This document shows positions 51,548 to 64,000 of a DNA stretch of 64,000 nucleotides, in pieces (the first letter of the stretch is position 1; each line of letters opens with the position of its first letter). A model generated the notes under the pieces. The model did not search any database and was not told the DNA's origin. It saw nothing but the letters and a program-made list of their open reading frames with translations. Both the position numbers and the translations under genes were made by a program. Origin of the DNA: Sulfuricurvum sp. (GTDB taxonomy: Bacteria; Campylobacterota; Campylobacteria; Campylobacterales; Sulfurimonadaceae). The DNA lies in contig JAQTTG010000001.1 in assembly GCA_028710885.1 (NCBI GenBank), positions 434,001 through 498,000 on the forward strand, in the 5' to 3' direction.

Positions 51548-53380
51548 ATGATTCAAATCAATAACCTCACCAAAAGCTACGGGACACGCGTCCTGTTCGA
51601 TAACCTCTCTCTCAAACTAAACGCCGGAAACAAAGTGGGTTTCGTCGGACGCAACGGGACGGGTAAATCGACCCTCTTTAAAATCATCCTCGACGAAGAA
51701 CCCTACGATTCGGGAGAGATCATCATCCCGAAAAATTACCGTATCGGCACCCTCCGCCAACACCTCCACTTCACCCACAAAACCGTGCGTGAAGAGTGTG
51801 CCTCCGTCCTCACCGGAGATATGGAACATGAAGTGTATCGGGTAGAGAAGATCCTCTTTGGTCTAGGATTTACGCAGGACGATTTAGACAAAGACCCGCT
51901 CAGTTTCTCAGGTGGGTATCAAATCCGTCTCAACCTCGTCAAACTCCTCGTCACCGAACCGAACCTGCTGCTACTGGATGAGCCGACCAACTACCTCGAT
52001 ATCGTCTCTCTGCGATGGCTAGCAAGCTTTATCCGCAGTTTTGAGGGGGAAGTGATCCTCATCACCCATGATCGTGATTTCATGGATTCGGTCACTACCC
52101 ACACGATGGGATTGCGCCGCCGTAATGTGAGCATCATCAAAGGCAATAGCCACAAGTATTATGAGATGATGGAAAGCGAAGATGAGCTCTACGTCAAGAC
52201 CAAAATAAACCACGACAAAAAGCGCGCCGAATTGGAAGATTTTGTCGCCCGCAACAAAGCTCGTGCATCGAGCGCGGTGATGGCGCAGTCCAAACAAAAA
52301 GAGCTGGACAAAATGGGGGTAATGGAATCACTGGAGGGGGAAAAAGATCTCTCCTTTTCCTTCTCGTATAAACCGACTCCCGCCAAAGTGATCATGCAGG
52401 TGAAAAATCTCTCGTTTGGCTACACACCCGAAGAGCCGTTGTTCCAAGATGTCTCTTTCTCCCTCGAAGCGAAAAAATGTCTCGCCATCATCGGGAAAAA
52501 TGGCAAAGGTAAATCGACCCTCCTCAACACCCTCGCGGGAGTTTTGACACCGAACGGGGAGATCATCTCTCACCCCGCCACCGCCATCGCCCATTTCGGT
52601 CAGACCAACATCGACCGCCTCGATAAAAACCGCACGATCACCGAAGAGATCCAAAGTGCCGACAACACCCTCCAAAACGTCCGTATCCGAGGGATCTGCG
52701 GGACAATGATGTTCAGCGGCGACGATGCCGATAAAAAAATCTCGATCCTCTCAGGGGGAGAGCGCAGCCGTGTCATGCTGGGCAAAATCATCGCCACCCC
52801 TGCTAACCTCCTCTTTCTCGATGAGCCGACCAATCACCTCGATATGCAGTCGATCGATTCACTCTGCGACGCTATCAAACGCTTCGAAGGCTCCACGGTA
52901 ATCGTCACCCACTCCGAGATGCTCTTGCGCGAGCTTGCCGATCAGCTCATCATCTTTCGTGAGGGAACTGCCGAGTTTTTTGATGGCGGGTACGATGACT
53001 TTTTGGAAAAAATTGGATGGGATGAAGAGATCACCGACGCTCCAAAACCTGTCAAAGTAACCCAAAATATCAACAAAAAAGAGAATAAACAACAGCGTGC
53101 CGCATTGGTACAGGAGCGTTCCAAACTTCTAAGCCCGCTGAAAAAAGAGGTCGAAAAGTGCGAAGAGACGATCATGAAGCTCGAAGAGAAGCTCAAAACC
53201 TCCCATGAACTCCTCATCGAGTATTCGAATAAAGGAGAAAGCTCCAAGCTTATGGAACTCTCCAAAAGCGTCGCAGAGGATGAGAAGATGATCGAAGAGC
53301 TGTTCGAGAAGCTCGAAATCGCTCACGATGAGATCACACGGATCGAGGCCGAATACGAGGAAAAGCTAGGTGAATTCTAA
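51548..53380 (+). CDS. ABC-F ATPase
   Basis: A 610-residue soluble protein with two ABC domains: Walker A GRNGTGKST and GKNGKGKST, signatures LSFSGGYQIRL and LSGGERSRVML, and Walker B LLLLDEPTNYLD and LLFLDEPTNHLD. A coiled coil ends the protein (about 510-605). It resembles the Uup/YbiT type, translational factors that bind at the ribosomal E site. The next gene overlaps it by 11 bases. Confidence 0.93.
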   Translation: MIQINNLTKSYGTRVLFDNLSLKLNAGNKVGFVGRNGTGKSTLFKIILDEEPYDSGEIIIPKNYRIGTLRQHLHFTHKTVREECASVLTGDMEHEVYRVEKILFGLGFTQDDLDKDPLSFSGGYQIRLNLVKLLVTEPNLLLLDEPTNYLDIVSLRWLASFIRSFEGEVILITHDRDFMDSVTTHTMGLRRRNVSIIKGNSHKYYEMMESEDELYVKTKINHDKKRAELEDFVARNKARASSAVMAQSKQKELDKMGVMESLEGEKDLSFSFSYKPTPAKVIMQVKNLSFGYTPEEPLFQDVSFSLEAKKCLAIIGKNGKGKSTLLNTLAGVLTPNGEIISHPATAIAHFGQTNIDRLDKNRTITEEIQSADNTLQNVRIRGICGTMMFSGDDADKKISILSGGERSRVMLGKIIATPANLLFLDEPTNHLDMQSIDSLCDAIKRFEGSTVIVTHSEMLLRELADQLIIFREGTAEFFDGGYDDFLEKIGWDEEITDAPKPVKVTQNINKKENKQQRAALVQERSKLLSPLKKEVEKCEETIMKLEEKLKTSHELLIEYSNKGESSKLMELSKSVAEDEKMIEELFEKLEIAHDEITRIEAEYEEKLGEF

Positions 53381-54074
53381 AACCCGCCTCGACAAACTCA
53401 TAGGCTCTTTGGGCTATTGCAGTCGCAAAGAGGTTGCCTCTCTCATCCGTGAGGGAATCATCACCCACACCGAAAACCTCCCTCTCAAACCCGACACCAA
53501 AGTCTCTCATGAACATATCCTCTTCGAGAAAGAACCGCTTGACCCGCCGCAGGGGATGGTGATTTTGATGAACAAGCCCGTAGGGTATGTTTGCAGCCAC
53601 GACGACGGCGAAGGGCGTCTCGTCTACGATTTGTTGCCTGAGCGGTGGCGCAGACGCGATCCAAAAATCTCCACCGTCGGACGACTGGACAAAGATACGA
53701 GCGGACTGCTGCTGCTCACCGATGATGGCGCACTACTGCATCGCCTCACCTCTCCGAAACATCATGTCTCGAAAATCTACGAAGCGACATTGGATCGACC
53801 TCTCAAAGGGGATGAAGAAGCTATTTTTGCTTCGGGGGCGCTGATGCTTAACGGCGAAAAAACACCGTGCATTCCTGCCCATCTTACCGTGATCGATGAG
53901 ACTCATGCCACGCTAGAAATCGTCGAGGGGCGCTACCATCAGGTACGGCGGATGTTCGCGGCGGTGGGGAATCATGTTGTCTCCTTGCACCGCTCATCGT
54001 TCGGGGATTTGACGCTGGGGGATTTAGAGGTTGGAGAGTATCGAATTCTAACTCAAAAAGAAATACCTAACTAA
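53370..54074 (+). CDS. RsuA/RluB-type pseudouridine synthase
   Basis: A 234-residue enzyme with an N-terminal S4 domain (KTRLDKLIGSLGYCSRKEVASLI) and the catalytic motif VGRLDKDTSGLLLLT. It starts with GTG inside the end of the ABC-F gene. Probably modifies large-subunit rRNA (RluB/RluE type) or 16S (RsuA); not decided by eye. Two diverged fragments of the 3' end of such a gene occur downstream (54291-54366 and 62245-62373), so this gene end is an insertion hotspot. Confidence 0.92.
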   Translation: MNSKTRLDKLIGSLGYCSRKEVASLIREGIITHTENLPLKPDTKVSHEHILFEKEPLDPPQGMVILMNKPVGYVCSHDDGEGRLVYDLLPERWRRRDPKISTVGRLDKDTSGLLLLTDDGALLHRLTSPKHHVSKIYEATLDRPLKGDEEAIFASGALMLNGEKTPCIPAHLTVIDETHATLEIVEGRYHQVRRMFAAVGNHVVSLHRSSFGDLTLGDLEVGEYRILTQKEIPN

Positions 54075-54098: not shown

Positions 54099-54314
54099 TT
54101 AATCGTTCACAAAATCCCTCTTCTCAAAACTCCAGTGATACCATTCATCCCCTACTTTCAGTAAAGCATGTGTATCTGAATAACGTTGGCGATCAAAAAA
54201 ATTATACAAAGGATTTAACCATTGATATTTCCTATACATAGCTAAAATGATGATGACAAATATTTTGCTACTAGTTAATTTTTCGCTACATGGAATCATG
54301 TCACAGCGTTGCAC
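54099..54314 (-). CDS. Doubtful ORF, maybe a gene remnant
   Basis: A 71-codon frame. Its last 45 residues (NFFDRQRYSDTHALLKVGDEWYHWSFEK) look like a real protein end, but the first 25 lie in the pseudouridine synthase fragment and are not protein-like. It may be the 3' end of a gene cut by an insertion. No ribosome binding site. I cannot name the family. Confidence 0.3.
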   Translation of the reverse strand: MQRCDMIPCSEKLTSSKIFVIIILAMYRKYQWLNPLYNFFDRQRYSDTHALLKVGDEWYHWSFEKRDFVND

Positions 54315-54366
54315 CGCTCTTCGTTTGTGGGAGTTAAAGGTGGGAGAGTATAAGTTAATTTCTTAA
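54291..54366 (+). pseudogene. Fragment of the 3' end of a pseudouridine synthase gene (copy 2)
   Basis: GTCACAGCGTTGCACCGCTC and the bases after it match the end of the gene at 53370 (HVVSLHRSSF) and more closely copy 3 at 62245 (HVTALHRSSF). An internal deletion shifts the frame; the last codons read LKVGEYKLIS and stop, parallel to LEVGEYRILT of the intact gene. It is a leftover of an insertion or exchange at this gene end. Confidence 0.75.
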
Positions 54367-54370
54367 TTAC

Positions 54371-54862
54371 TTAATTTTTCTGACTTAACGTGCTAACTAT
54401 TTCATTCCACTTTTTCGATAGAGCAATTAAATTTTCTGCTGATTTGTTTAATCTCTCTCGATCAATAATAAATATTTCGATCTTGTGTTCCTTATCTTTG
54501 CCAACAACTTTACCAATTTTAATTTCATTTTTATCGTAAAATTCCAGAACACCATGAGCACAAACATCACGAATTTGTACAGTGTTTTTTGTTAATTTAA
54601 TTATTGATTCAATTTTATACTGCTTCGCCAATTGATCAGGTAATTTGTTTGAAATAAAGTCGAACTTTCCAGCCAGTCTCATTGGTTTACACTTTAATGG
54701 ATTTTGTTTATGTAATAAGTGGACACATTGATCTATTGACCTCTCTACTGAAGACCAAGACACAACTATCATACCAATCACACAAAACCACGATATGAGT
54801 AATTCTTGATCATTTTCCATAGATGCTGATAGTGAGATGGATTCTTGTACCATAATGGTCAT
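54371..54862 (-). CDS. HEPN-like protein, single gene
   Basis: A 163-residue mainly helical protein. IRDVCAHG (Arg98-His103) fits the RX4H motif of HEPN ribonucleases and follows a long helix pair, so a HEPN-type fold is likely though unproven. No antitoxin gene is fused or overlapping. The track start at 54862 lies in the promoter-like sequence GATACAAT, so translation may begin at ATG 54853 or 54820. It ends four bases after pseudouridine synthase fragment copy 2, the same relation as the HEPN gene at 62412 to copy 3. Confidence 0.6.
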   Translation of the reverse strand: MTIMVQESISLSASMENDQELLISWFCVIGMIVVSWSSVERSIDQCVHLLHKQNPLKCKPMRLAGKFDFISNKLPDQLAKQYKIESIIKLTKNTVQIRDVCAHGVLEFYDKNEIKIGKVVGKDKEHKIEIFIIDRERLNKSAENLIALSKKWNEIVSTLSQKN

Positions 54863-54879
54863 ATTGTATCAAATAAAAT
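54862..54879 (-). promoter_or_regulatory. Shared 18-bp promoter sequence of HEPN gene 1
   Basis: ATATTGTATCAAATAAAA is identical to 62965-62982 upstream of the second HEPN-like gene. On the minus strand it gives TTTGATACAATAT with an extended -10 element. Confidence 0.55.
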
Positions 54880-54934
54880 GGTTTCATTTCCCATTTTTAA
54901 CTTGATCCCACTCTCCTGAATAGAAATGACGTTG

Positions 54935-55192
54935 TTACCCATGCGCCTTTAAGCCATCCGCAATCAACATCTTTAGATACGACTGATAGGGAATGTCATT
55001 TTTATTGGCTTGAATTTTGAGTGTTTCGATCATATCGACAGGCATACGAATCGAGATCGTTTTCGCACTCTTTTGCAACTTTGTAAGGCGTACCGGTTTG
55101 GCTTTGTCCCAGTCGATATACTCGGTCGAGTCGTGTTCGTCCCAAAATGCCGCAATCTCTTCTTCGGTTTTAAGTTCAGGATTTTTTTTCAT
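54935..55192 (-). CDS. brnA: BrnA-type antitoxin
   Basis: An 85-residue protein: an acidic N-terminal part (ELKTEEEIAAFWDEHDSTEYIDW) that binds toxin, and a C-terminal ribbon-helix-helix (KTISIRMPVDMIETLKIQANKNDIPYQSYL). It overlaps the brnT gene by 17 bp, the standard order for this module, toxin first. It represses the operon and neutralises BrnT. Confidence 0.92.
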   Translation of the reverse strand: MKKNPELKTEEEIAAFWDEHDSTEYIDWDKAKPVRLTKLQKSAKTISIRMPVDMIETLKIQANKNDIPYQSYLKMLIADGLKAHG

Positions 55193-55481
55193 AATAGCTT
55201 CTCTCCTTTTTGCTCATCGGTCGTGCCGAAATCACCCGGATATTTTGTCCTCGCACCGTAAAGGCGACAAAGAGCATTTGTCCATTATCGGCTTTACCCA
55301 ACGCATAACATCGGCACTCTTGCTCCGAATGGGCATTATCTTCATAGATGAGTAACGGTTCGTTGAAAAATATCTCTTCGATCAGCCAAAAATCGAGACC
55401 ATGTTTGAGTTTGTTTTTTTGGATATTGCCATCGTCCCAATCAAACCCGTGTAATCGTTCGACATCGAGACAATCAAACAT
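55176..55481 (-). CDS. brnT: BrnT-type toxin
   Basis: A 101-residue RelE-fold ribonuclease toxin with GFDWDDGNIQKNKLKHGLDFWLIEEIF at the N-terminal half, LFVAFTVRG and the end ISARPMSKKERSYYEK. These match BrnT closely. The protein has ten extra N-terminal residues (MFDCLDVERLHG) before the usual start; a later start is possible but no better ATG is seen. Confidence 0.92.
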   Translation of the reverse strand: MFDCLDVERLHGFDWDDGNIQKNKLKHGLDFWLIEEIFFNEPLLIYEDNAHSEQECRCYALGKADNGQMLFVAFTVRGQNIRVISARPMSKKERSYYEKKS

Positions 55482-55549
55482 TACTCACCTTTTTATAGAA
55501 TGTATATTATGATTATATACACTATTATATACCATGTCAAGATAATGAA

Positions 55550-55612
55550 TCAAAGCTTCTCACCCCACAATCGTAATGCATTCGTAATCACCGACATCGA
55601 GCTGAAACTCAT
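55550..55612 (-). pseudogene. 3'-end fragment of a copper P-type ATPase gene (copy A)
   Basis: Minus strand reads MSFSSMSVITNALRLWGEKL and a stop. This is the last membrane helix end of copper-transporting P1B ATPases (S.SVSV..NALRL). It lies 10 bp after the parE stop; nothing of the rest of the gene is present here. It is about 80 percent identical by eye to copy B at 56219. Confidence 0.75.
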
Positions 55613-55621
55613 CAATAAACA

Positions 55622-55900
55622 TCACGGCAAATTTTCCCGATACAGCGTCAATATCCAAATCTGATCTTTCTCAACGGTATAGATGATCGAGTAGCCCTGA
55701 TATACAAGTTTGCGCGAACCACTGATCAGTTCTTCCGAACTTCGCCCCGCATAGGGAAAAGCACTCAATGTACTCACAATAAATTCATGAAGACGTTGCA
55801 AATACTCTCGTGTAAATTTTTTGGATTGTGTTTGTTCATAGATGTATTCGGCAATCATCTCCAAACGATGATGCGCTTTGGGTGAAAAATCAATCCGCAT
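55622..55900 (-). CDS. ParE/RelE-family toxin
   Basis: A 92-residue toxin: FSPKAHHRLEMIAEYIYEQTQ, LQRLHEFIVSTLSAFPYAGR and VYQGYSIIYTVEKDQIWILTLYR, typical of the ParE/RelE fold. It overlaps the Phd gene upstream by 11 bases. Probably a gyrase-inhibiting ParE or an mRNA-cutting RelE type; not decided. Confidence 0.9.
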   Translation of the reverse strand: MRIDFSPKAHHRLEMIAEYIYEQTQSKKFTREYLQRLHEFIVSTLSAFPYAGRSSEELISGSRKLVYQGYSIIYTVEKDQIWILTLYRENLP

Positions 55901-56144
55901 ATTTCGCGATTACACAATCAAATGCTTCATCTATCCCTATGTATTCGCCCCGCTCGATCTGCTCTTTTGCCTCTTTGAGTTCGCGTTTGAGCTGTGCATG
56001 GGTACGGTTGTATTCATCGAGCGACATGATGACGACACTCTTGTCGTTTTTGGTCGTGACAATCACCTCTTCGTTATTGTCACACACCTCATCGATGATC
56101 GATTTGAGTGAGTTGCGAGCGGTTGTGTAGTTGAGGGCTTGCAT
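55890..56144 (-). CDS. Phd/YefM-family antitoxin
   Basis: An 84-residue antitoxin starting MQALNYTTARNSLKSIIDEV, with VIVTTKNDKSVVIMSLDEYN of the Phd/YefM family and a charged C-terminal helix that binds the toxin. ATG 56144 with AAAGGCG upstream is preferred to the track start (56174). Confidence 0.9.
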   Translation of the reverse strand: MQALNYTTARNSLKSIIDEVCDNNEEVIVTTKNDKSVVIMSLDEYNRTHAQLKRELKEAKEQIERGEYIGIDEAFDCVIAKYAD

Positions 56145-56218
56145 AGGATCGCCTTTATGACAGCTTTCTGTCATTATATCGGATTTTTAAGGTTTTATGT
56201 ATGAAATCTATATCGTCA

Positions 56219-56338
56219 TCAGAGCCTGACATTGCGCAACCGCAATGCATTCATAATCACTGACACCGAACTGAAACTCATCGACGCCGCCGCGATTATC
56301 AGTTCCAGCGCCATCGCGCAGACAACGTCTTTTTCCAT
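56219..56338 (-). CDS. 39-residue ORF from a copper P-type ATPase C terminus (copy B)
   Basis: Begins 11 bp after the cusA stop, with GGGAG five bases before its ATG. The chain MEKDVVCAMALELIIAAAS then MSFSSVSVIMNALRLR ends as P1B ATPases do. The P-type ATPase body is absent. It is either a decayed fragment or a small membrane protein made from the last ATPase helix and kept by the ribosome binding site. Together with copy A it brackets the ParE/Phd module. Confidence 0.55.
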   Translation of the reverse strand: MEKDVVCAMALELIIAAASMSFSSVSVIMNALRLRNVRL

Positions 56339-56349
56339 AGTAACTCCCT

Positions 56350-59300
56350 TTATAAAAGTTCTTCACCTCGCTGCAATTTTCGCTGCATCACCATCTGATA
56401 CAAAATCGGGATCAAGATGAGACTCACTACTGCCGAGGTGACAATCCCCCCAATCATCGGGGCGGCGATCCGCTGCATCACTTCGCTCCCAACACCGTGG
56501 TTGTACATGATCGGCAGCAGCCCCGCGAGGATCGCAAATACCGTCATCAGTTTCGGACGAACCCTCTTAACCGCCCCCTCGTAAATCGCCTCATTGAGGG
56601 CTGCTTTGTCCATTGCGACACCGCCGCGGATACGGCTCTCGATACTCTCGTGCAGATAGACGATCATGACAATCGCCGTCTCCGCCGCCACCCCCAGAAG
56701 TGCCAAAAATCCGACGATAACGGCGACACTGATGTTGAAGTGGAGCCATTTGAGATAGAGGACACCGCCCAAAAGGGCAAACGGGAGCATCGAGAGGACA
56801 ATGATCGTCGAGACCCACTCGCGCAATGCCAGATAGATAAGGACGATGATAAGAGCGATCACGGCAGGGACAATCCACATCAGCGTATTGAGCGCCGATT
56901 CGAGATATTCGCTCTGTCCCGCCCACTCGTACGTGTACCCCTCGGGGAGTTTGAGCGAAGAGAGCTGTTGCAGCGCCTCGGCTTTGTACGCCGTCGCACT
57001 CACCCCCTCTTTGGGAGTGATGTAGACATAGGCGACGGGACGCGCTTTTTCACTCTTGATCATCGCCGCACTCTCGCGATAATCGATACGGGCGAAGGTC
57101 GAGAGCGGTGCGTAACCGAGCGGTGTTTTAATCAGGATGGATCGGATTGCGTCAAGTGAGGTGCGCTCATCCTCTTCGAGACGGAGGCTGACGCTGTAAC
57201 GTTCCCGCCCTTTGTACATCGTCGAGAGCCCCATCCCCCCGATCGCGGCGGAGGTGTAATCCAGCAGCGCCTCTTTGCGGAGGTTATAGCGCGCCAATGC
57301 CGCTTCGTCGATATCGATATCGATGTAATACCCGCTGTCGCTGCGGTCGGCAAAGACGCTCTGGGTAGAGGGAATCTGCTGCAAACGGCTTTCGATCTCG
57401 CGCGCCGTTTTTTGGAGCGTCGGCAAATCATCGCCGTAAAGCTTGATCCCCAGCGGAGTGCGGATACCGCTGAGGAGCATATCGATCCGTCCTCGGATCG
57501 GATAGGTCCATGAGTTGACCAGTCCCGGAACCTGTAGGGCGCTGTCGAGTTCCTGCTGCAATTTGGCAGTTGTCATCCCATCTCGCCATTGATCTTTGGG
57601 TTTGAGGGTGATAATCGTTTCGATCATCCCCAGCGGAGCGGGATCGGTCGCACTGTCCGCCCGTCCCCCTTTTCCAAATACGCTCTGCACTTCCGGAAAG
57701 CTTTTGATCACCGAATCGGTATATTGGGTCAGCGCTTTGCTCTGATCGATACTGACACCGCTTTGGGTGACGGGCATGTACATCAGTGTCTGCTCATCCA
57801 TCATCGGCATAAACTCCCACCCCAAAGAGCGGTACACATACGCCGTATACCCCAATGCGACAACGACCAAAACAAGGAGAAGATAGCGAAACTTCATCGA
57901 AGCAATAAGAATCGGATGATAAAGCCAAATGAAAAAACGGCTCACCGGATTGGTCTGTTCGGAGAGGATACGACCCCGTACGATCAGGTAGATCAGTACC
58001 GGTACGAGCGTCACCGAGAGCAGCGCCCCTACCCCCATAGCGAAACTTTTGGTAAACGCCAGCGGAGTGAACAGCAATCCCTCCTGTCCCTGAAGGGCAA
58101 AGATAGGGAGGAACGATACGACAACAAGCGCCAATGCGAAAAAGATGGGACGCCCTACCATTTTCGACGAATAGAGGACGGCATCAAGCCGCTGTGCGGT
58201 TGTAAGCGTTCCCGACTCACTTTCACGCTGAAGCAGTACCTTGTGGGCATTTTCGATCATGATAATCGACGCGTCTACCATCGTCCCCACTGCGATGGCG
58301 ATCCCGCCCAGCGACATGATGTTCGAGCCGATCCCGAAAAGTTTCATCAGCAAAAAGGTGATCGCGATGGTAAGCGGCAAGATAATAAGGACAATCAGTG
58401 CACTGCGCAGATGGAGCAAAAAGAGGGCGATTACCGCAATGACGATCAGACTTTCATGCTCGAGCGTCGTCGTGAGGGTAGCGATGGCGGAGCGGATCAG
58501 GCTGGAGCGGTCATATACGGGGACTACTTCGACCCCTGCAACATGGATCGTGTCGAGTTTCTCCCGTATCCGCTGAATGACACGGTAAACGTCTTCGCCG
58601 TATCGGACGACGACGATACCCCCGACAACTTCCCCCTGACCGTTTAGATCGGCATACCCGCGACGGTTTTCAGGGACTTTTTCGATACGGGCGATTTGGG
58701 AGAAAAGGACGGGAACACCCCCGCGGGTCGCAATGACAAGGTTTTCGATCGAGTCGATGTTTTGGAGATACCCTTTGGCTTGTACCATCCACTCATACCC
58801 GTTTTGGACGACAATCCGCCCTCCGACGTCGTTGTTATTCCCTCTAATCGCTGCGGCGACTTCGCCGACACTGAGGTTATAGCGCACCAATGCATCGTTG
58901 TTCAATGTTACCTGATAGGTCGGGACGAATCCTCCGACGGAGGCAACTTCACTGACCCCCGAAACCCCCTGCAGCGCATAGCGGTAGGTGTAGTCCTGCA
59001 ATGTCCGCAATTCGGCAAGGTTTTTGGTTTTGGAAACAAGGGCGTATTCGTATACCCACCCTACCCCTGACGCATCGGGTCCGAGAGAGACTTCAAGCGT
59101 TTTGGGAAGCTGCGACTGCAGCGTTGAGAGCTGCTCAAGGACACGCGAACGTGCCCAGTACAGATCGACCCCGTCTTTAAATATGATGTAAATCAGACCG
59201 TTCTCATACCCCGAAAATCCCCGAACCGTTTTGATCGCAGGGAGAGAGAGGAGCTGACGGACGATCGGATAGGTCCCCTGCGCTTCGATGATCTCGGGGC

Positions 59301-59469
59301 TTTGCCCTTTCCATTTGAGCTGCAAGATCACCTGCGGTGGAGAGAGATCGGGGATAGCGTCCAGCGGAGTGTGCCGTATCGCCCAGATCGATAACAGGCT
59401 CAGCACGAGTGCCGCCGCTATAACCCAGTAGCGAAATCGCAGACTCCACTCTATCAGACGCTCTACCAT
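56350..59469 (-). CDS. cusA: Copper/silver RND efflux pump CusA-type
   Basis: A 1039-residue heavy-metal RND protein with twelve membrane helices. The three methionines of the CusA site appear in the right contexts: EFMPMMDEQTLMYMP, APLGMIETIITL and GRIDMLLSGIRTPLG. Transport acidic residues are in the fourth helix region (GIAIAVGTMVDASIIMIENAHK). It pumps Cu(I)/Ag(I) from the periplasm. It is the third pump gene in transcription order, eight bases after cusB. GC content is higher than in the core genes around it. Confidence 0.93.
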   Translation of the reverse strand: MVERLIEWSLRFRYWVIAAALVLSLLSIWAIRHTPLDAIPDLSPPQVILQLKWKGQSPEIIEAQGTYPIVRQLLSLPAIKTVRGFSGYENGLIYIIFKDGVDLYWARSRVLEQLSTLQSQLPKTLEVSLGPDASGVGWVYEYALVSKTKNLAELRTLQDYTYRYALQGVSGVSEVASVGGFVPTYQVTLNNDALVRYNLSVGEVAAAIRGNNNDVGGRIVVQNGYEWMVQAKGYLQNIDSIENLVIATRGGVPVLFSQIARIEKVPENRRGYADLNGQGEVVGGIVVVRYGEDVYRVIQRIREKLDTIHVAGVEVVPVYDRSSLIRSAIATLTTTLEHESLIVIAVIALFLLHLRSALIVLIILPLTIAITFLLMKLFGIGSNIMSLGGIAIAVGTMVDASIIMIENAHKVLLQRESESGTLTTAQRLDAVLYSSKMVGRPIFFALALVVVSFLPIFALQGQEGLLFTPLAFTKSFAMGVGALLSVTLVPVLIYLIVRGRILSEQTNPVSRFFIWLYHPILIASMKFRYLLLVLVVVALGYTAYVYRSLGWEFMPMMDEQTLMYMPVTQSGVSIDQSKALTQYTDSVIKSFPEVQSVFGKGGRADSATDPAPLGMIETIITLKPKDQWRDGMTTAKLQQELDSALQVPGLVNSWTYPIRGRIDMLLSGIRTPLGIKLYGDDLPTLQKTAREIESRLQQIPSTQSVFADRSDSGYYIDIDIDEAALARYNLRKEALLDYTSAAIGGMGLSTMYKGRERYSVSLRLEEDERTSLDAIRSILIKTPLGYAPLSTFARIDYRESAAMIKSEKARPVAYVYITPKEGVSATAYKAEALQQLSSLKLPEGYTYEWAGQSEYLESALNTLMWIVPAVIALIIVLIYLALREWVSTIIVLSMLPFALLGGVLYLKWLHFNISVAVIVGFLALLGVAAETAIVMIVYLHESIESRIRGGVAMDKAALNEAIYEGAVKRVRPKLMTVFAILAGLLPIMYNHGVGSEVMQRIAAPMIGGIVTSAVVSLILIPILYQMVMQRKLQRGEELL

Positions 59470-59477
59470 GACATATC

Positions 59478-60476
59478 CTAAAAGTTCCCGTTGATCTGGG
59501 CATCCGAGTCGATCATGAAGAGGGCATTGGCTACTACTTCATTCCCCTCGGAAAGTCCTGAACGGATCTCATAGCGATCATTTCCGACCGCTATGGCATT
59601 GACCTCTACCGGCTCGTATTCCCCCTCGTATTCCCCTTTTTTAAAGCAGAACCATTTCCCTTTTTTTCGGATGACGGCACTGCGGGGGACGACCAAGGCT
59701 CCGCTTGCATGCATCATCGGGGTAATCGAAGCATACATCCCCGGAAACAGTTTTCCGCCCGGGTTTGGAAGAGTGATACGCATCGTCAGTGTCGATTCGC
59801 TCGGATTGGTGTTCGGATAGATTTTCCCCCGTTTGGCGTATAACGGACGCTCAAACCCCGTTACACGGATTTCGTAGGAGTCCACTTTTTGAAGCGTTTC
59901 GAGCTGTTCGGGAGGAAATTTCATCTCCAGCCAGATCGGATCGAGCCGGACAACCCGAAACAGCGGCTGCATAGCGCCAAAAGCGGAACCTTTGTCGATC
60001 TTTTTATCGAAAATATATCCGGATACGGGAGAGCGTACCGTCGTCGTAGATCCTACCGTCCCCGTTTTTTCGATCGCGCTTATCTCGGACATCGGAACAT
60101 TCAGATAAATCAGCCGCTCTTTCGTACTCTGAACCATCCCCGGATTAGGACGGATAGCGTTGTATTTGAGCGAACTGAGATACTCATCTTTGGCCTGCAG
60201 CACTTCGGGGCTGTAGACCTCTGCGATTACTTCTCCTTTGGAAATATGCTGATAGGTCTCGGTAGCGCGAAGCTTTTCGACATATCCGCCGAAACGGAGC
60301 GCGATGATCGATTCTTGAGATTCATCCGCCCTGAGATAGCCGAAGTTTTTTCCCACATTCGCCGTCGTGTCAGCACGTTTGACCTTTACCGTCGTGACGT
60401 TAAACTGCTGGATGATCGGGGCGGGTTTGGCCCACAATACCGATCCCACTATCACTAAAGCTAAAAAATATCTCAT
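59478..60476 (-). CDS. cusB: Cus-type membrane fusion protein
   Basis: A 332-residue periplasmic adaptor with signal peptide (MRYFLALVIVGSVLWA). Lipoyl/barrel-hybrid motifs: FGGYVEKLRATETYQHISKGEVIAEVYSPEV, VRSPVSGYIFDKKIDKGSAF and LTMRITLPNPGGKLFPGMYASI. It joins CusA and the outer membrane channel. Short form without the CusF-like end. Overlaps the channel gene by four bases. Confidence 0.92.
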   Translation of the reverse strand: MRYFLALVIVGSVLWAKPAPIIQQFNVTTVKVKRADTTANVGKNFGYLRADESQESIIALRFGGYVEKLRATETYQHISKGEVIAEVYSPEVLQAKDEYLSSLKYNAIRPNPGMVQSTKERLIYLNVPMSEISAIEKTGTVGSTTTVRSPVSGYIFDKKIDKGSAFGAMQPLFRVVRLDPIWLEMKFPPEQLETLQKVDSYEIRVTGFERPLYAKRGKIYPNTNPSESTLTMRITLPNPGGKLFPGMYASITPMMHASGALVVPRSAVIRKKGKWFCFKKGEYEGEYEPVEVNAIAVGNDRYEIRSGLSEGNEVVANALFMIDSDAQINGNF

Positions 60477-61675
60477 GACTCTTTCCCCACCAGTAAATCA
60501 AGTTCCGCCTGGGCACGGTAGAACGCCGCAACGGAGCGTGACTGTTGCAGTTGCAGTTGCAGTTTTTGTTTGAGCAGTTCAGTAAATCGGAACAAATCCT
60601 CACCGTTGCGGATTGAAGCTTCGGAGAGTTCGAACATGTGGTTGAGCTGCGGCAGACTTTCATCGTGAATCACTCTCCACACTTCGGCAGATTTCACCAT
60701 CTCGGCATATTTTTGGCGCATTGAAGCTTCCAGCTGCAGATAGACCGCCTCTTTGTCGCGGCTTCGCTCCAGTACCTTTTCACGGTTAATCTGCTCTTTC
60801 ACCGACTCCGTACCATACACAGGTAGCGGAATGTTGACACCGATACTCCAATAGTCATTGAACGCTTCACGACGGCTGTATCCTGCCTGCACCGTTACGT
60901 CCGGATAGACATCGAGCTGTGATTGGCGCAGCTGTACCCCTGCCGATTTTAGCTGAGCCTCTTTGGCACGGTAGCCGAAATTGTTTTCCAGAGATGTTTT
61001 ATACGACTCGATGGGTTCAATCTGCCCCATGTTCAAATCCACATCTACCTTCTCTACCTGTTTTGCACACAACTGTGAAAGAGCGGCATAGGAGCGTTCC
61101 TTCTCCTGCGCCAGATCGGCCTGAATGATTTTGATCTGTGAAAGATCCATTTGAGATGACATGATCCCCATATGCCGCCCCGCAGCAGCAGAGGATGAGA
61201 GGGCGGTATAAAGTTCGCCGTTTTGGCGGACGATTGTCTCAAAATCTCGATATATCCGTTCCTCTTCGCTAATCTGCCAAAGACGGTAAGCCTCTTTTTT
61301 GATTTCACTGACCAATAACGCTTTGGATTGGCTCAGAGTTAAATCTGCATACACTTCCTGTGCCTGTGCATCCTCGTAACGCAGATCGCGCTTGCCGGCA
61401 AACGGGAGCTTTTGCTGTAATGAGAGGGTCGTAAACTGCATCGGTTCTAACGAACGGTTGGTAATATCCCGAGTCTGGATATCATTGACCAGCAGCTGCA
61501 AAGAGGGGTTGTCAAAATTACGGGATATCTCTTTTTGAGATCGGCTTTGTTCGACACGAGCCTGCGCACTGATAAGAGAAGGACTATTTTGCAATGCCTG
61601 ACGTATCAGGACATCTACACTCTCACAGTAGCCCAATACCGCGGCAACCGATAGTGCCAGAGCGACTCGTATCAT
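60473..61675 (-). CDS. cusC: Outer membrane efflux channel, CusC/TolC-like
   Basis: A 400-residue outer membrane factor with signal peptide and two efflux-protein repeats of long coiled helices (e.g. SLISAQARVEQSRSQKEISRN, LQQKLPFAGKRDLRYEDAQAQEVYADLTL, QAGYSRREAFNDYWSIGVNIPLP). It lacks an obvious lipobox. With cusA and cusB it forms a tripartite pump. Confidence 0.88.
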   Translation of the reverse strand: MIRVALALSVAAVLGYCESVDVLIRQALQNSPSLISAQARVEQSRSQKEISRNFDNPSLQLLVNDIQTRDITNRSLEPMQFTTLSLQQKLPFAGKRDLRYEDAQAQEVYADLTLSQSKALLVSEIKKEAYRLWQISEEERIYRDFETIVRQNGELYTALSSSAAAGRHMGIMSSQMDLSQIKIIQADLAQEKERSYAALSQLCAKQVEKVDVDLNMGQIEPIESYKTSLENNFGYRAKEAQLKSAGVQLRQSQLDVYPDVTVQAGYSRREAFNDYWSIGVNIPLPVYGTESVKEQINREKVLERSRDKEAVYLQLEASMRQKYAEMVKSAEVWRVIHDESLPQLNHMFELSEASIRNGEDLFRFTELLKQKLQLQLQQSRSVAAFYRAQAELDLLVGKES

Positions 61676-61685
61676 CGCCCTATTC

Positions 61686-62066
61686 CTAGAGGCTCAACGA
61701 TGTTTTAAGACGGTATTTTTTTCCCTCTTTCGTGGTTACGAAGATTTGAAACTGCCACGTTCCGCCCATATCCAGATTAACCGACGTTTTGTATATTCCA
61801 TGACCTTGTGCGACCGCTTTGCCTTTGGATTCCATAGCGGGCATTCCCGGCATTGCCGGCATAAATGCTTTAACTTCTACACCCGCATTATCGATCGGCA
61901 TATTTTGCTGATTCAACGTAATCATGAGAGCATTATTGCCAACGATCAATGGCTTGTCGGAACTGACAACCGCTTTTACATTTTGTGATGATGTACTTTG
62001 TTCCCACGCCGCACCAAATGACAACGATGCGAACAACATGCTGATAAGGATAAACTTGAATTTCAC
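61686..62066 (-). CDS. YtkA-like/FixH-like periplasmic protein
   Basis: A 126-residue exported protein with signal peptide (MKFKFILISMLFASLSFG) and a GTG start. The domain has Met- and Pro-rich FMPAMPGMPAMESKGKA, and ends GTWQFQIFVTTKEGKKYRL. YtkA-like domains of this type occur in copper and cbb3-oxidase loci; the Met-rich loop may bind Cu(I). First gene of the cus operon, ten bases before the channel gene. Confidence 0.82.
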   Translation of the reverse strand: MKFKFILISMLFASLSFGAAWEQSTSSQNVKAVVSSDKPLIVGNNALMITLNQQNMPIDNAGVEVKAFMPAMPGMPAMESKGKAVAQGHGIYKTSVNLDMGGTWQFQIFVTTKEGKKYRLKTSLSL

Positions 62067-62152
62067 AGGAGACCCCTTTGATAACTTTTTATTATTGTAA
62101 CGCTATTCTCGCTCAATAAGTATGAACGCTATATTAATGCAGTCTCTTCGTC

Positions 62153-62244
62153 TCAAATTCTACGATTAAAAATCCGAAATAAAACGGCAAACACAATAAC
62201 CCCAACGATATCAAAACCAAACACGATTAACGAACCGAGCCCTC
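62153..62244 (-). pseudogene. Truncated membrane-protein gene end
   Basis: The minus-strand frame reads GSLIVFGFDIVGVIVFAVLF and then RIFNRRI with a stop. It is one hydrophobic helix and a basic tail, the likely 3' end of a gene. The upstream part is replaced by the pseudouridine synthase fragment at 62245. It lies just upstream of the cus operon. No family assigned. Confidence 0.4.
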
Positions 62245-62373
62245 CTCCATCGCCTCACTTCTCCAAAACATGCGGTTGGGAACCATGTGACAGCATTGCA
62301 CCGTTCGTCGTTTGGGAATTTGACGTTGGGGGATTTAGAGGTTTGGGAGTATCAGATTATCAAATACGAGTAA
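62245..62373 (+). pseudogene. Fragment of the 3' end of a pseudouridine synthase gene (copy 3)
   Basis: Reads LHRLTSPKH, then jumps in frame to AVGNHVTALHRSSFGNLTL and GDLEVWEYQIIKYE with a stop. Both parts match the gene at 53370 (LHRLTSPKH at about residue 124, AVGNHVVSLHRSSF near 205), so about 75 codons are missing between them. It shares VTALHRSSF with copy 2, not with the intact gene. It has no start or S4 domain. Confidence 0.82.
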
Positions 62374-62411
62374 AACCAACTTATGGGTTTTTAATTGGCT
62401 CTGCTAATTTG

Positions 62412-62918
62412 TTAAACTTTTTTACCAATAATTTCTAAGTCTCCATTTTCTCCATCTAAGACCATGATCAAGTTTTCAATTATATTTTCTTCAATTAAAT
62501 GACGACCAATTTCTTTTTCCAAATTATGAATATCAAATCGAATTTTTTCTAGCTTTGTAATAGCTTCGATATAAGCATCATTACTCATCAGAGGCCAACC
62601 ATAATCTCTTAAAATATGATGAGCAACATAATTTCTTTTTTCTACTGTTTCCTCAAGCAAGATGGTAAGCTCTGAATTTTGAAAATGTTTTTTAAATCTA
62701 TTTGCAATCCATCCCAAAGTTTTTGTTGAAAGTAACTCTTGATTTTCTTTAAAATTTTTATCCGACTGATTGTTTTGTGTAAGTAACGCTGAAAATTTAA
62801 AAGACAAAGAAGCCTCAAAAACCTGAATTTCTGCAACTGTAGCACCCAATAGCAAAAATAAAGCGTGATCAGCATCTTCAAAGTCAAAATTAAAAGCTGT
62901 TTCACCAATGATAAGCAT
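62412..62918 (-). CDS. HEPN-like protein, single gene
   Basis: A 168-residue mostly helical protein with EKRNYVAHHILRDYG (Arg95-His100, RX4H) after a long helix pair, a HEPN-like signature. ATAGGAG precedes the ATG. It differs from the protein at 54371 in sequence but has the same length, motif placement, promoter sequence and position after a pseudouridine synthase fragment (39 bp). No partner gene overlaps it. RNase activity is a guess from the motif. Confidence 0.6.
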   Translation of the reverse strand: MLIIGETAFNFDFEDADHALFLLLGATVAEIQVFEASLSFKFSALLTQNNQSDKNFKENQELLSTKTLGWIANRFKKHFQNSELTILLEETVEKRNYVAHHILRDYGWPLMSNDAYIEAITKLEKIRFDIHNLEKEIGRHLIEENIIENLIMVLDGENGDLEIIGKKV

Positions 62919-62964
62919 ATATCTCCTATATTGCGTTAAACTAGAATTTTTTTCCTCAGTACTA

Positions 62965-62982
62965 ATATTGTATCAAATAAAA
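62965..62982 (-). promoter_or_regulatory. Shared 18-bp promoter sequence of HEPN gene 2
   Basis: ATATTGTATCAAATAAAA, identical to 54862-54879. On the minus strand TTTGATACAATAT gives an extended -10 about 45 bp before the start codon. Confidence 0.55.
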
Positions 62983-63049
62983 CTACACCCTTTCCCCTTT
63001 TGACAAAAACACTATAGAGGGATATAATTTGAGAAAAAGGAGTTTAAGA

Positions 63050-63346
63050 ATGCCCTGCACCAAACAAACCATTCTAAGCTACCTTACAACGCATATCCAA
63101 GAATTTAAAACCAAATACGGTGTACAGCAAATCGGGCTGTTTGGCAGTTATGCCAGAGACGAAGCAACCGATACGAGTGACATCGATCTGTATGTCCATC
63201 TCGAAAAAAACACTTTTGACGCGCTCAGCGGACTATGGGTTCAAATCGAAAACGATCTACTCAAGAAAGTAGATTTGATCGCTTCTCATGCTCACATGAG
63301 ACCCGGATTAAAAAGCACTATCGAGAACGAAGTGATCTATGGATAA
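63050..63346 (+). CDS. mntA: MntA-type minimal nucleotidyltransferase (antitoxin)
   Basis: A 98-residue protein with the exact GSX10DXD motif (GSYARDEATDTSDIDLYV, Gly32 to Asp46). ATG 63050 follows AAGGAG; the track start 63029 is inside that site. MntA proteins AMPylate the HEPN toxin HepT near its RX4HXY motif and so inactivate it. Overlaps hepT by eight bases. Confidence 0.92.
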   Translation: MPCTKQTILSYLTTHIQEFKTKYGVQQIGLFGSYARDEATDTSDIDLYVHLEKNTFDALSGLWVQIENDLLKKVDLIASHAHMRPGLKSTIENEVIYG

Positions 63347-63710
63347 AAAAAGCGCACAGGAGCTTTTAGAGTTCATCGCGGAGAGTATCCAAATCATTAA
63401 AAAGCGGATGAGCGTGATAAAAAGTATCGATGACTTTTTGGATACCGATGAAGGTCAGGAAAAACTCGATTCCATCTTGATGCGTATCCAAGCGATTGGA
63501 GAAGCTACCAAAAATCTAAACAAGAGAAATGCGGAACTCCTTGAAAAGTATAGAGACAACACCTATTGGAGTCAAGTCATCAAAACGAGAGAAGTTATTT
63601 CACACCACTACATCGACATTAACGCTGAAATCGTTTTCGACATCGCGACCAATAAATTAGATGATTTATACTCCGTTGTTAATACAATCCTCGAAAAAGA
63701 ATTTGCGTAA
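63339..63710 (+). CDS. hepT: HepT-type HEPN RNase toxin
   Basis: A 123-residue DUF86/HepT protein. TREVISHHYIDIN holds the RX4HXY motif (Arg84, His89, Tyr91), where Tyr is the AMPylation site in known systems. It cuts RNA when not neutralised by MntA. Complete module, with order antitoxin then toxin. Confidence 0.92.
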   Translation: MDKKSAQELLEFIAESIQIIKKRMSVIKSIDDFLDTDEGQEKLDSILMRIQAIGEATKNLNKRNAELLEKYRDNTYWSQVIKTREVISHHYIDINAEIVFDIATNKLDDLYSVVNTILEKEFA

Positions 63711-63754: not shown

Positions 63755-64000
63755 ATGCTAATCTATGATCACCCCTCTTTTCTCCTACTCACCAAAAATG
63801 CAGGTGCCAACTTCCACTCCGAAGACTCGGCTGGATTTGTCGTGCAAATGTCCGAGCAGTTCGGTATCCCCCTTTTCCCCGTTCATCGTCTCGACAAAAT
63901 GACTTCCGGACTGGTGATTCTCGCCAAAAATTCCGAAACGGCGGCGCAGTTTGGGAAAATGTTTGAAAACCGAGAGATCGAGAAATACTACCTCGCGATC
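63755..64000 (+). CDS. RluA-family pseudouridine synthase, cut by the window end
   Basis: Not in the ORF track. The frame from ATG 63755 runs to the window edge (82 codons): MLIYDHPSFLLLTKNAGANF, then FPVHRLDKMTSGLVILAK with the catalytic Asp. No S4 domain, like the TruC/RluA group, which modifies tRNA or rRNA. It marks the return to housekeeping genes after the insertion hotspot. Confidence 0.88.
   Translation, partial: MLIYDHPSFLLLTKNAGANFHSEDSAGFVVQMSEQFGIPLFPVHRLDKMTSGLVILAKNSETAAQFGKMFENREIEKYYLAI

Follow-up and report, generated by a model that had tools for sequence, protein, structure and literature searches.

A window of 64,000 nucleotides (bases 434001-498000 of contig C13) in a Sulfuricurvum genome of 2.64 Mb, here called the host, raises the question of why two similar gene orders stand downstream of the pseudouridine synthase gene rluB. 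In each of them, a fragment of rluB is followed by a convergent gene for a protein with an R-x4-H motif (HEPN_A with 163 residues and RDVCAH, HEPN_B with 168 residues and RNYVAH) and by the same 18-mer. A preliminary description of this DNA had interpreted the orders, which are real, as a cassette type that targets the 3′ end of rluB and carries a variable HEPN cargo. According to the analysis presented here, the locus is a further instance of a hotspot type already known, and a novel mobile cassette type is not supported. Probably, the island between rluB and rluA consists of hotspot alleles with putative HEPN cargo that were joined end to end by a transformation-linked route, the rluB remnants being decayed seams. 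The features concerned are (positions of the window):

53370-54074, plus strand: intact rluB (RluB/RsuA-type pseudouridine synthase; Pfam PF00849 PseudoU_synth_2, expect value (E) 6.4e-23), the left core flank
54292-54358, plus strand: rluB remnant A, a 3′ end (nhmmer E 5.6e-9; blastn 75%)
54371-54862, minus strand: open reading frame (ORF) of HEPN_A, a 163-residue orphan and putative HEPN protein with the motif RDVCAHG (R-x4-H)
54861-54878, minus strand: promoter-like 18-mer by the 163-residue ORF, reading TTTTATTTGATACAATAT
62237-62377, plus strand: rluB remnant B, rluB nucleotides ~361-393 joined to nucleotides ~592 to stop
62412-62918, minus strand: HEPN_B, a 168-residue solo HEPN-like protein with the motif RNYVAHH (family alignment; sub-threshold HEPN-clan Pfam models)
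62965-62982, minus strand: promoter-like 18-mer by the 168-residue ORF, reading TTTTATTTGATACAATAT
63755-64000, plus strand: start only of an rluA-type gene, the right core flank, whose orthologue follows rluB in relatives

The rluB–rluA interval is a genus-wide hotspot without integrase, in which fixed core flanks enclose a variable cargo. An rluB orthologue is present in 36 of 41 genomes of the genus. The gap between the two genes, an island of 9.7 kb in the host, ranges in the relatives from a 7-nucleotide overlap (-7 nucleotides) to 10.5 kb, being smallest (overlap or a few bases) in the loci L077, L100 and L101 and largest in L076. Across the genus, the cargo comprises CopG/BrnT and MNT/HepT toxin-antitoxins, a P-type-ATPase-like gene, a CzcCBA-like efflux operon, a pentapeptide-repeat gene, a sensor kinase with hydrolase and numerous singletons; several of these names were assigned by inspecting translations, without a profile match. 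Repeated gene acquisition at the 3′ side of rluB, as previously assumed, is borne out. The gene adjoining rluB is convergent to it in 25 of 32 loci. Since convergence after the 3′ end of rluB is the usual layout of the hotspot, no cassette is required to account for it. Neither an integrase nor a transposase was recognised in the hotspot when the small genes of the window were analyzed with Pfam and the gene families of the relatives by inspection, a few of them also with Pfam. Hotspots lacking mobile elements have been reported to diversify through recombination at the flanking core genes (PMC5635113). In an informal comparison, the closest relative of the host rluB depends on the part of the gene, being either L065 or L085. 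Genome G015 possesses two differing rluB loci with unlike hotspot content on the contigs C39 and C8 (L065 and L066), which may reflect contamination or a second copy.

To locate pieces of rluB, an nhmmer profile of 37 rluB genes of the genus was used, which detected three extra pieces in the host island, beyond the intact gene. One of them is remnant A. The other two make up remnant B, in which a piece running to the stop codon (62272-62377, E 1.8e-19) is abutted by a mid-gene piece (62237-62271, E 0.0076), about 200 nucleotides of rluB being deleted between them. The description of both fragments as 3′ ends therefore applies to A but not to B, which contains mid-rluB sequence (nucleotides ~361-393) and is not a clean 3′-end repeat. 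In the 37 rluB loci of the genus, no rluB fragment was found in the gap of any other species; fragments exist in the host genome only. These data have to be compared with what a site-specific mobile or integrative element would leave behind, that is, an element with an attachment site at the rluB 3′ end which restores rluB, carries variable HEPN cargo and displaces 3′ ends by tandem entries. Both fragments indeed hold a 3′ portion of rluB from near nucleotide 590-600, and in each case one convergent gene and the identical 18-mer come next. However, the confinement of the remnants to the host genome argues against a recurrent attachment-site mechanism, as displaced rluB 3′ ends are missing in the other species even though most of them carry cargo there. 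Moreover, remnant B runs into mid-rluB, the lengths and boundaries of the units are unequal, unrelated genes are preceded by the 18-mer in other genomes of the genus, and no integrase-like gene was found among the hotspot families inspected or scanned. Such an element is very improbable, and an attachment site at the rluB 3′ end was rejected on the basis of the genus survey. The more general notion of a cassette type directed to this site is not supported either. The remnants occur solely in the host and no integrase was recognised; the two units have fragments of different extent, unequal spacing and dissimilar flanking modules; and HEPN_B has one relative about 26 kb from rluB in the same genus and others on plasmids, a finding that the preliminary description itself had named as one that would contradict it. 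A version restricted to this lineage, in which integrase-free cassettes composed of an rluB tail, a convergent HEPN effector and an 18-nucleotide promoter end enter the 3′ end of rluB, is scarcely credible.

A comparison of the host island with the rluB–rluA gaps of the relatives at the DNA level dissected the remaining sequence into the following modules and gene remnants:

54106-54149, minus strand: remnant of the gene for a small membrane protein (c40 of L074; 84-90% DNA identity over 40-44 nucleotides; 45% over 33 residues, E 3e-5)
54925-55549, minus strand: CopG antitoxin / BrnT toxin module (Pfam E 5e-31 and 7e-25)
55548-55613, minus strand: 3′-end remnant of the P-type-ATPase-like gene (c0; 77-87% identity to c0 3′ ends of several relatives)
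55622-56174, minus strand: ParE / Phd toxin-antitoxin pair (Pfam E 1.8e-8 and 4e-14)
56235-56338, minus strand: second c0 remnant, whose 3′ end (56235-56303) abuts the 5′ end (56311-56338), the interior being deleted
56350-62066, minus strand: CzcCBA-like efflux operon and FixH-like gene (names by inspection)
62150-62238, minus strand: VanZ-like gene (c9 of L066/L090), of which an internally deleted tail is left (weak, short tblastn and blastp matches; aligned by eye)
62992-63710, plus strand: MNT / HepT toxin-antitoxin pair (Pfam E 2.5e-13 and 3.3e-13)

The island is a mosaic. Its CopG/BrnT module is present at 82-89% DNA identity in the gaps of six relatives (copG alone in L086), and the first c0 remnant is collinear with the copG-brnT-c0 order of L074. 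Host positions 56311-62138 are collinear with the gaps of L070 and L088 (83-87% DNA identity), while an MNT/HepT-type module stands after rluB in L089 (85% identical) and L084 (73% identical). The c40 gene directly follows rluB in L074, L086 and L090, and the VanZ-like tail, aligned by eye, is readable right up to remnant B. As the rluB–rluA gaps vary by exchangeable modules and the modules of the island are singly collinear with these gaps, the mosaic reading is supported. At least four hotspot genes have left remnants (rluB, c40-like, c0 twice, VanZ-like), so that rluB is not special in this respect. In genome G042, a 3′ remnant of copG (L089:2659-2690, 97% over 32 nucleotides) lies just ahead of MNT/HepT, and remnants at module joins are therefore not unique to the host genome. 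A 71-residue ORF (54099-54314) is probably not a genuine gene, its similarity to the 155-residue membrane protein of L074 being confined to its final ~33 residues, which correspond to the C-terminal part of that protein.

How could such a mosaic have been assembled? Cargo would be brought in or exchanged through recombination within the core genes on either side, and in the host at least two incoming alleles were probably placed beside the resident allele without replacing it. The likely route would be a single homologous exchange at the rluA end together with an illegitimate join at the other side, resembling homology-facilitated illegitimate recombination following natural transformation. 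An exchange on the rluA side is suggested by the presence of just one rluA, located at the right end, and uptake of DNA is possible because the host genome encodes DprA and ComEC. The rluB remnants would then be the points at which donor alleles, each beginning in the donor's own rluB, were joined to resident DNA. At these seams, the rluB ends of the donors would have decayed via point changes and internal deletions; the gene ends may be what survived after the alleles had been joined and trimmed, and the convergent gene after each remnant would be the cargo that adjoined rluB in the donor allele. We infer from this an additive, one-sided variant of recombination. One genome here displays what appear to be seams joining alleles of a hotspot with no recombinase of its own and, if this is true, the seams are physical evidence that such islands grow by addition besides replacement.

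The rluB sequence of the remnants might, on the other hand, stem from the host itself, if an rluB-containing segment was duplicated in tandem within the host lineage, followed by insertion and decay, without any foreign rluB. Over the whole of remnant B, the top score was in fact obtained with the host's own rluB (84%), the rluB genes of L084 and L089 being next and thus nearest among the relatives. These two are the only relatives with an MNT/HepT module in the rluB–rluA gap, but their match to remnant B is no more than suggestive of a donor, as the host rluB scores as well. An internal duplication is nonetheless unlikely, since remnants A and B jointly depart from the host sequence (CACAGC/GACAGC, where the host rluB has TGTCTCC) and there resemble a type common in other species, and since the adjoining cargo is low in guanine plus cytosine (GC) and absent from relatives. 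The end-to-end joining of donor alleles has to face several objections, too. The remnants are short, and their distances to many rluB genes, including that of the host, are about equal, so that by this measure a donor origin is separated at best tentatively from an internal duplication; both also keep an rluB 3′ portion beginning near nucleotide 590-600. Donor alleles were not found, and no relative shows the order rluB-HEPN_A or rluB-HEPN_B; searches of families, plasmids, phages and genomes yielded no relatives of HEPN_A. Finally, the sharing of the 18-mer in front of two unrelated genes exceeds chance and is not predicted by a model of seams.

The 18-mer TTTTATTTGATACAATAT, an extended -10-like sequence on the minus strand, has two exact copies in the 2.64 Mb host genome, located at these sites only. 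Dinucleotide shuffles of both upstream regions gave a longest shared word of 12 in 4000 trials, which places the 18-mer beyond chance. In the genus, four exact copies were counted, two in the host, one in G007 and one in G015, where they are situated 98 and 5 nucleotides, respectively, upstream of ORFs unrelated to HEPN_A and HEPN_B. For this reason, the 18-mer was rejected as a cassette end. Versions with up to two mismatches were about twice as frequent in the genus as those of a reversed control (41 vs 20). The element is best read as a promoter. It lies 46 nucleotides upstream of the ATG of the 168-residue ORF, with a Shine-Dalgarno-like AGGAG in between. The copy at 54861-54878 overlaps with the ATG listed for the 163-residue ORF. 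If it serves as the promoter of this gene, the start is probably further in, e.g. at Met4 (54853) or Met16 (54817).

Regarding the cargo, HEPN_A and HEPN_B are low-GC accessory genes (31% and 30% GC, rluB 52%). Searches with both proteins in Pfam, NCBIfam, PADLOC, PHROGs and PDB returned nothing usable. HEPN_B can be assigned by alignment to a family of solo HEPN-like proteins that is unnamed in the profile libraries searched. A relative encoded by a 173-residue frame was found in G020, a genome of the same genus, outside the hotspot and about 26 kb from rluB. Via this protein, HEPN_B connects to solo plasmid genes of Vibrio, Candidatus Tenderia, Emticicia and Sinorhizobium. One relative, encoded on a Vibrio plasmid, immediately follows a QatCD defence operon (L109:3998-4510); another lies within a DUF3265-rich Vibrio array, repeated DUF3265 genes being typical of integrons (L112:2935-3477). 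Both are annotated merely as hypothetical proteins. The locus thereby points to a family that occurs on plasmids, in such an array and once beside a Qat operon. Phylum-wide searches gave mostly chance matches and one real match (L060), and neither tblastn of plasmids and phages nor pattern searches in viral and genome contigs detected close relatives of either protein. In an alignment of seven diverse members of the family, R95, N96 and H100 are invariant, which agrees with the HEPN criterion of a conserved Rx4-6H whose R is followed by a polar residue (PMC3710099). HepT-like, RiboL-PSP and ApeA HEPN models recur below threshold among the members (best 4.7e-4), while HEPN_B itself gave no significant match to any Pfam HEPN model. 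Its single-sequence structure model is helical but of low confidence (predicted local distance difference test (pLDDT) 52), and a Foldseek search with this model gave no significant match. Because the motif is invariant and HEPN-clan models recur across the family, it is very probable that HEPN_B has a HEPN fold. Identity with the integron HEPN protein 3jrt was considered, and a profile test did not support it.

For HEPN_A, the earlier assignment to the HEPN proteins stands at the level of the motif. The single-sequence structure model is poor (pLDDT 36), and an hhalign comparison with the HEPN_B family aligned the motif with a score that was not significant. Motif and local context suggest that HEPN_A is possibly a HEPN protein. 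The view that the two genes are not the outcome of a recent duplication was confirmed. By analogy with the superfamily (PMC3710099), an effector or toxin role may be assumed: HEPN_B would very probably, and HEPN_A possibly, be a HEPN ribonuclease that serves as a growth-arrest or anti-phage effector and is expressed from its own promoter with the 18-mer as -10 region. Their adjacency to toxin-antitoxin modules, head-to-head for HEPN_B with the divergent MNT/HepT and in tandem for HEPN_A with CopG/BrnT, might suggest that one or the other forms a single defence or toxin-antitoxin unit. This is most improbable, as both modules are found in relatives without HEPN_A or HEPN_B, and as the relatives of HEPN_B are solo genes in unrelated neighbourhoods. 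With MNT/HepT systems (PMC7641770) the locus shares a pair of this kind at 63029-63710, next to HEPN_B, but neither HEPN protein has an MNT partner of its own. HEPN_B resembles the HEPN superfamily, in which an integron-cassette protein (PDB 3jrt) is listed (PMC3710099), by its small size, solo occurrence, predicted helical structure, R-N-x3-H motif and a relative in the DUF3265 Vibrio array; a difference is that neither 3jrt nor any Pfam HEPN model gave a significant sequence match with it. Like integron gene cassettes, the island lines up small genes of toxin-antitoxin and HEPN type in exchangeable modules. By contrast, no integron integrase was recognised in it and the module ends are non-uniform. 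A recurrent attC-like site was likewise not recognised in the island, though no dedicated attC model was run; when the two units were compared directly, the rluB remnant and the 18-mer were their sole shared sequences. With integrase-less core-gene hotspots, the island has in common the fixed flanks rluB and rluA, a highly variable cargo, no integrase seen and the presence of DNA-uptake genes; it differs from them by internal remnants of a flanking gene that would record additive joins and are unique among the 37 loci. A HEPN protein of the RiboL-PSP type (Pfam PF18735, E 1e-10) is encoded beside a gene for a ParA-like ATPase in the region downstream of rluB in G007 (L068:5241-5900, rluB on the plus strand).

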